This document shows, piece after piece, positions 2,226-50,745 of a DNA stretch of 64,000 nucleotides. Below the pieces are notes generated by a model. That model ran no database searches. It saw nothing but the letters and a program-made list of their open reading frames with translations, and was not told where the DNA came from. This DNA comes from Thermococcus alcaliphilus (GTDB lineage: Archaea > Methanobacteriota_B > Thermococci > Thermococcales > Thermococcaceae): positions 1 through 64,000 of the forward strand of contig NZ_JAMXLV010000022.1 of the NCBI RefSeq assembly GCF_024054535.1, written 5' to 3'. Position 1 is the first letter of the stretch. Each line of letters starts with the position of its first letter. Made by a program: the position numbers and the translations under genes.

Positions 2226-2855
2226 ATGGGCATGTTCATCGTCTTAGAAGGAATCGACGGGGCAGGAAAGTCAACTCAAGCTAAAATGCTTGCGAAGTGG
2301 TTTGAAAATAAGGGATACGAAGTCGTTCTCACCAAAGAACCTACAGACACTGCTTTTGGAAAGCTAATAAGGAGACTCGTACTGACGGGAGGAAAAGAGG
2401 GAATAATCGATGGTGCACGGATAAGCAAAGAAGCAGAGGCACTACTTTTTGCTGCAGATAGAGCCGAGCACGTTAAAAAACTCATAGAGCCTTCTCTGAA
2501 AGCCGGAAAGGTGGTTATATCCGATAGGTATTTCTACTCATCCCTAGCTTACCAGTGGGCTAGGGGGCTTGATCTGGAGTGGCTTATCAACTTGAATGCC
2601 TTTGCCCCAAGGGCTGACCTCGTAATCCTTCTCGACTTGCCAGTTAAGGAGAGCATAAAACGCATAAACGGTAGGAGCATCAGGTCAGAGTTTGATAAGA
2701 TCGTGGAGCTCCAGAAAAAGGTGAGGGAAAACTACCTAAAGCTTGCCGAGAAGTTTGAGGAGATAAGGATTATAAACGCCCTAGCCCCTGTTGAGGATAT
2801 TCACAACGACATAGTGGCTCTGGTTGAGCATGAACTCCTTGAAAAAAGAGAGTAG
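2226..2855 (+). CDS. tmk: Thymidylate kinase (dTMP kinase)
   Basis: 209 aa, normal length. It phosphorylates dTMP to dTDP with ATP. Visible motifs are the P-loop [10 protein letters not shown] (about 8-17), the TKEPT segment, the DRY-type motif [16 protein letters not shown] and the lid-region RSIRSEFDK. The start is chosen because GGAGGTG ends 5 nt before ATG 2226; an in-frame ATG two codons later is less well placed. A box A-like GCATTAAAAAG about 35-50 bp upstream suggests its own promoter. Confidence 0.95.
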
Positions 2856-2911
2856 AGGTCAGACAGTGCCGATCTCATCATCTATCAGACCGGTAAACGC
2901 ACATCATCCCA
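2855..2911 (-). ncRNA. C/D box sRNA (23S-directed, two guides)
   Basis: Read on the minus strand, the order is C box ATGATGT (2907-2901), guide GCGTTTACCGGT, D' box CTGA (2888-2885), C' box ATGATGA (2881-2875), guide GATCGGCACTGT and D box CTGA (2862-2859). The spacing is that of a compact archaeal C/D sRNA guiding 2'-O-methylation with L7Ae, Nop5 and fibrillarin. The D' guide is complementary over 10 nt (CGTTTACCGG) to the 23S gene at 30889-30898. The D guide is complementary over 8 nt (CGGCACTG) at 30932-30939. By the N+5 rule the targets would be a G and a U in these stretches. A box A (CTTTTTAAAG, 2940-2931) lies about 25 bp upstream. Confidence 0.85.
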
Positions 2912-2943
2912 AACCTTTTAACTCCCTATTCTTTAAAAAGTGT
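2911..2943. promoter_or_regulatory. Overlapping divergent promoters of two C/D sRNAs
   Basis: The 33 bp between the sRNAs contain AAACCTTTTAACTC (2911-2924), placed about 25 bp before the plus-strand sRNA. They also contain CTTTTTAAAG on the minus strand (2940-2931), about 25 bp before the minus-strand sRNA. Each box A thus lies nearer the other RNA, so the two promoters interlock. Confidence 0.6.
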
Positions 2944-3001
2944 TAGCCGATGACGAGCGTTAGCCACCCTGATGAGTGATGACAAGAGGGTTAGCTGAGG
3001 C
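2944..3001 (+). ncRNA. C/D box sRNA (23S-directed)
   Basis: The order is C box CGATGA (2948-2953, one change from TGATGA), guide ending CGTTAGCCACC, D' CTGA (2969-2972), C' GTGATGA (2976-2982), guide CAAGAGGGTTAG and D CTGA (2995-2998). The D guide matches the 23S gene over 10 nt (AAGAGGGTTA, 30866-30875), only 13 bp from the site matched by the neighbouring divergent sRNA. The D' guide shares 8 nt (GTTAGCCA) with 23S at 30593-30600 but is unpaired next to the D' box, so that target is doubtful. The 160 bp that follow, up to the next gene, hold only that gene's promoter and no ORF. Confidence 0.82.
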
Positions 3002-29849: not shown

Positions 29850-32912
<3,063 letters not shown>

Positions 32913-34633: not shown

Positions 34634-34960
34634 TGCTATTAGGAGTACGGCCGGTGGGACTCCCCTCGAAGGGGAGTACCATAAAACCCATCCGGGGTTT
34701 GGTCGGGGTGTTGGGCCTGCCTTACCCCCGAGGGGTCCCCTTTCGGGTTTCCTCGGGAGCGCACTTTGTTGTGCCCAAGGCTGGAGGGCGGGGTTCATTG
34801 TTGGGTGCTTTGCACCCACTCCCCTCGACGCCGCCGTTTTATGCCTGGGCTTTGGGCGCCCTTATTCGGGCGCTCCACCCTATAGCTCGAGACCCCCACA
34901 ATGAAAAATTTTTGCAAAGCCTTGGGAGGCCATATTTTTAGTAAAAAAGCTGTTAAAATT
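34634..34960 (-). promoter_or_regulatory. rRNA operon promoter and leader
   Basis: No gene is present. From 34634 to about 34890 the DNA is GC-rich, with several hairpins (for example GAGCGCCC/GGGCGC near 34858-34876 and the 16S processing arm), as expected for a transcribed leader. Upstream it turns abruptly AT-rich. Box A candidates on the minus strand are CTAAAAATATGG (about 34931-34942) and GCAAAAATTTTTC (about 34903-34915). The next 160 bp, to prs, are AT-rich with nothing recognisable. Confidence 0.5.
34705..34722 (-). repeat. 5' arm of the 16S rRNA processing stem
   Basis: 18 bp, exact inverted complement of 33101-33118. It lies in the GC-rich rRNA leader. Confidence 0.85.
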
Positions 34961-50686: not shown

Positions 50687-50745
50687 GAAGTGATGAGCGC
50701 TTCCGATCCTGAGGGCAAGATGATGACCGGATTCCTGTCTGATCT
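50687..50745 (+). ncRNA. C/D box sRNA (one 23S-matching guide)
   Basis: The order is C box GTGATGA (50690-50696), guide GCGCTTCCGATC, D' CTGA (50709-50712), C' ATGATGA (50720-50726), guide CCGGATTCCTGT and D CTGA (50739-50742). All boxes are canonical. The D guide matches the 23S gene over 10 nt (CGGATTCCTG, 30487-30496). By the N+5 rule the methylated base would be the second G of CAGGAAUCCG. No convincing rRNA match was found for the D' guide. Confidence 0.85.

Follow-up and report, generated by a model that had tools for sequence, protein, structure and literature searches.

The divergent small RNA pair at positions 2855-3001 of the window, by which we mean the whole 64,000-nt stretch of Thermococcus alcaliphilus DNA analyzed here, consists of sR12 and sR34, two housekeeping guide RNAs that are already catalogued in Rfam. 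Very probably, they are orthologues of the Thermococcales sR12 and sR34, inherited vertically as divergent neighbours with overlapping promoters, with sR12 directed to U1841 and G1897 and sR34 to C1920 of 23S rRNA, and with targets clustered through a general modification hotspot. The preliminary description of this region was correct in its anatomy, but the kind and family of both RNAs are known, and the cooperation that it proposed was over-interpreted. The principal value of the present analysis is that it closes this lead, the guide RNAs being in Rfam already.

Identity, conservation and expression of the pair

The sequence was scanned against all Rfam families, and a family was called when the covariance model score reached or exceeded the gathering threshold. 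sR12 (RF01147) was found on the minus strand at 2858-2909 with 45.4 bits against a gathering score of 38, and is conserved across the order. sR34 (RF01273) was found on the plus strand at 2946-3000 with 67.6 bits against 40. Both scores exceed gathering and the genes lie on opposite strands, as expected from the proposal of two divergent C/D guide sRNAs. We regarded as a C/D box sRNA an RNA of approximately 55-60 nt with a C box (RUGAUGA-like), a D box (CUGA), and internal C' and D' boxes. All four boxes were present in both RNAs, with one-base deviations in the C boxes of sR12 (AUGAUGU) and sR34 (AUGACGA). In sR12 (minus strand), the C, D', C', and D boxes occupy 2907-2901, 2888-2885, 2881-2875, and 2862-2859, respectively; in sR34 (plus strand), they occupy 2950-2956, 2969-2972, 2976-2982, and 2995-2998. 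Three of the four guides match rRNA in such a way that the fifth position upstream of their D or D' box faces the acceptor. The points established here directly are the families of both RNAs, the complementarity of the guides and its register, synteny, and the placement of the TATA elements. The window also carries two further guide RNAs: the C/D RNA sR5 (50687-50743) and, upstream of the 16S rRNA gene, the H/ACA RNA Pab19 (34770-34873).

Across the Thermococcales, sR34 was found in 92 of 94 genomes, and the sR12 D' guide with its box in 82 of 94, always within approximately 150 bp of sR34 when coordinates were compared by eye. The pair was divergent in every one of the 82 genomes carrying the sR12 guide. 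Within the window's own genus, six genomes carry sR34 but lack sR12, as do the genera g2 and g6, and this retention in several lineages indicates that sR34 is independent of its neighbour.

Evidence of expression comes from T. kodakarensis. The genome of this species (G024) was recognized by its 23S gene, which lies at the coordinates given in PMC9014305, and the pair was checked by sequence. Its sR34 and sR12 coincide with Tko-sR41 and Tko-sR42, respectively (PMC9014305). Tko-sR41 spans 1226838-1226899 with a transcription start site (TSS) at 1226903, and Tko-sR42 spans 1226948-1227017 with a TSS at 1226948; 31 and 7,194 circular reads were reported for them, respectively, together with linear reads from both, and the circles nearly vanish in an RNA ligase knockout (PMC9014305). 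The expectation that small RNAs are transcribed from this locus therefore holds in a relative, by mapped starts and circular reads.

Guides, predicted 23S rRNA targets and the orphan guide

Acceptor nucleotides were predicted by the box+5 rule, and E. coli numbers were assigned by alignment to E. coli 23S rRNA. The sR12 D' guide CGUUUACCGG (2890-2899, minus strand) pairs with 23S rRNA at 30889-30898 (minus strand) through 10 Watson-Crick pairs and one G-U pair in the D'+5 register, with the acceptor G at 30895, predicting Gm at G1897. The sR12 D guide CGGCACUG (2864-2871, minus strand) pairs with 30932-30939 (minus strand) through nine Watson-Crick pairs and one G-U pair, with the acceptor U at 30936, predicting Um at U1841. 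For the sR34 D guide AAGAGGGUUA (2984-2993, plus strand), whose core is conserved in all six genera, 10 Watson-Crick pairs were formed with 30866-30875 (minus strand) in the D+5 register, with the acceptor C at 30872, predicting Cm at C1920. Following the established numbering, we take U1841 and G1897 to be in helix 68 and C1920 to be in helix 69. The three acceptor sites span 65 nt. Each target was the top site in 16S and 23S rRNA with position 5 inside the duplex, and the three matches are exact and lie where the preliminary description had placed them. That description was also right in assigning them to adjacent 23S helices; its range of helices 68-71, about E. coli 1900-1960, was slightly too far 3', the sites falling in helices 68 and 69.

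The individual matches are only moderately strong, and the case for them rests on conservation. When the guides were shuffled, an equal or better match in 16S and 23S rRNA was obtained in 16 of 400 cases for sR12 D', 35 of 400 for sR12 D, and 6 of 400 for sR34 D. Guide-target covariation was uninformative, because the target region is almost invariant (the target sequences hardly differ across 42 further 23S genes). We consider it improbable that at least one of the three matches is fortuitous and the guide concerned has another target or none. The frequency with which the shuffled sR12 D guide equals its rRNA match favours such a coincidence, and the sR34 D' guide, described below, demonstrates that a guide can be conserved with no identifiable target; however, all three guides are in register, are conserved across genera, and point into the hotspot, and the complement of U1841 recurs in a second, independent sRNA. 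This C/D-like RNA (L140, G000:C22:68822-68877) carries the guide ACCGGCACTGG, a second guide to 23S U1841. Its D' box position is occupied by an unusual AUGA, and words consisting of an L140-like guide plus box were found in 37 of 94 genomes.

The fourth guide was left out of the preliminary description; convergence on one region holds for three of the four, the remaining one being an orphan. This sR34 D' guide, CGUUAGCCAC (2958-2967, plus strand), is invariant in the order, as seen in all those sR34 sequences, from six genera, that were read at covariance-model positions, and has no convincing target. The search covered 16S, 23S, and pre-rRNA, SRP RNA, RNase P RNA, and 44 distinct tRNAs called by ARAGORN, together with a genome pattern allowing one mismatch, and the only candidate among these RNAs was an 8-bp site in 23S rRNA at window position 30598 (E. 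coli G2201), approximately 270 nt off, which was matched by 220 of 400 shuffles. Although the guide does not change, its pairing at G2201 differs between Thermococcales, from 9 bp in Pyrococcus to mostly 6-7 bp elsewhere (7 bp in the majority of Thermococcus), and we found this site unconvincing as a target. Two exact matches in the genome (C18:163679 and C24:33152) lie within no Rfam family or tRNA and were not retained. Base pairing within sR34, between this guide and the region of the D guide (GUUAGCC with GGUUAGC), is also possible and corresponds to a stem that is drawn in the Rfam model. The sR34 model also has a second, weaker match in the genome (L081, G000:C21:147136-147190), whose differing guides AACGTCAGCAC and AAAGGGACTTGA would be directed at nucleotide 861 of the 23S and nucleotide 546 of the 16S rRNA of the same genome.

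From the guides and the promoter motifs, we infer methylation at U1841, G1897, and C1920, as well as use of each TATA box. Both RNAs would assemble with L7Ae, Nop5, and fibrillarin; sR12 would direct 2'-O-methylation at U1841 and G1897 in helix 68, and sR34 at C1920 in helix 69, with its D' guide effectively an orphan. A published list of methylated 23S positions in Thermococcales was not found in the literature that could be read; RiboMeth-seq data for P. furiosus have been deposited and, according to the text of PMC7758197, are reported elsewhere.

Promoter layout and the question of joint action

Between the two genes, a TATA-like TTTTAA (2916-2921, plus strand) precedes the C box of sR34 by 28 nt, and a second TATA-like element, TTTAAAAA, which reads TTTTTAAA on the minus strand (2932-2939, minus strand), precedes that of sR12 by 24 nt; each was assigned by position and conservation. 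The two core promoters thus interlock in the window, as had been proposed, and this anatomy makes co-regulation through a common or overlapping promoter plausible. Fifty-eight distinct spacers are 55-61 nt long (from Thermococcus plus one genome of the genus Pyrococcus, G012), and every one of them has a single near-palindromic TTTTTAA element approximately 25 nt from each C box. A central element appeared in 0.07% of shuffled spacers, a figure to be read with the relatedness of the genomes in mind, as they are not independent. In T. kodakarensis (L098), the midpoint of the two TSSs (1226925.5) falls at the centre of this TATA element (1226921-1226929). A single TATA midway between opposite starts approximately 45-50 bp apart was therefore found in T. 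kodakarensis and not in the window. In three Pyrococcus genomes (L061, L062, and L063, in G006, G004, and G008, respectively), the C boxes are just 9 nt apart, which leaves no room for the promoters described, so that transcription there must start elsewhere; this observation speaks against the main reading given above. In addition, those genomes of the window's genus that lack sR12 still retain the TTTAAAA element, indicating that it may not serve sR12 alone.

It is possible, but to us doubtful, that a promoter working in both directions, built on one symmetric TATA in Thermococcus and on two interlocked ones in the window, is under selection and couples or alternates the expression of a pair of functional guide RNAs whose targets lie in neighbouring 23S helices. 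If this were true, bidirectional initiation, otherwise regarded as noise in archaea, would here have a conserved function. A conserved bidirectional TATA that would serve two guide RNAs is the sole, modestly new point of this analysis.

A stronger reading, that the sR12 and sR34 sRNPs form a dedicated co-regulated module which jointly chaperones or methylates helices 68-69, with the divergent promoter selected for matched amounts, appears very unlikely. Several observations agree with it: wherever the sR12 guide occurs (82 genomes) the two genes are divergent, each of the 58 Thermococcus-type spacers has a shared TATA at its centre, the target sites lie within 65 nt, and a chaperone role has been proposed for dual guides (PMC4644070). 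However, sR34 was kept without sR12 in the lineages named above, its D' guide takes no part, and overlapping core promoters should give exclusive rather than cooperative initiation. Moreover, several other sRNAs of the genome target the same region, one of them duplicating the U1841 guide. This was seen in a partial survey of the 30 best snoPyro_CD matches in the T. alcaliphilus genome, with guides parsed by script and partly by hand. Apart from sR12, 25 sRNAs could be assigned a target, and four of these (sR34, L140, L147, and L152, which is sR39) are directed to sites within 50 nt of this stretch of 23S rRNA, so that a random neighbour would target there about one time in six. Both targets could be assigned in 14 dual guides, half of which have sites at most 62 nt apart. 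The published record is similar: helices 68-71 of 23S rRNA are an archaeal 2'-O-methylation hotspot, and dual guides usually target sites less than 100 nt apart (PMC4644070, PMC7994747). The argument that the clustering is too improbable for chance and implies joint action is not supported, given the published hotspot, the four of 25 other sRNAs there, and the loss of sR12 with sR34 kept; as evidence that the pair acts jointly, the clustering is weak. On the preferred reading, vertical inheritance of a divergent arrangement with overlapping core promoters would account for the neighbouring genes, and the adjacency of the targets would reflect a general methylation hotspot at helices 68-71 and not a special two-RNA machine.

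Comparison with known systems

The Rfam families sR12 (RF01147) and sR34 (RF01273), C/D box sRNAs of Pyrococcus, share sequence, boxes, and both guides with the RNAs in the window, although the window copy of sR12 differs in its C box AUGAUGU and in altered flanks of the D guide. The divergent order is likewise found in other Thermococcales. The window spacer differs in having two interlocked TATA boxes. In bacteria, 23S C1920 is methylated by TlyA, a stand-alone protein methyltransferase. The equivalent nucleotide is predicted to be modified here, but the route through sR34 would be RNA-guided instead of relying on a protein enzyme, making sR34 a predicted RNA-guided archaeal counterpart for the TlyA methyl at C1920.

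Compared with the archaeal hotspot of helices 68-71, the pair would act on the same rRNA region, and close dual-guide targets are typical there, in surveyed species that did not include Thermococcales. The orthologous pair in T. kodakarensis, Tko-sR41 and Tko-sR42 (PMC9014305, PMC4247193), has a single TATA midway, whereas two are interlocked in the window. In P. furiosus, bidirectional transcription from one TATA, with TSSs 49-50 bp apart, has been described (PMC6640164). The arrangements are alike in having a symmetric TATA about midway between opposite starts. However, the second transcript in P. furiosus was deemed a non-functional antisense RNA (PMC6640164), whereas sR12 and sR34 are both functional guide RNAs. 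The divergent pair offers a natural setting in which to ask if a single archaeal TATA box is able to drive two functional genes.
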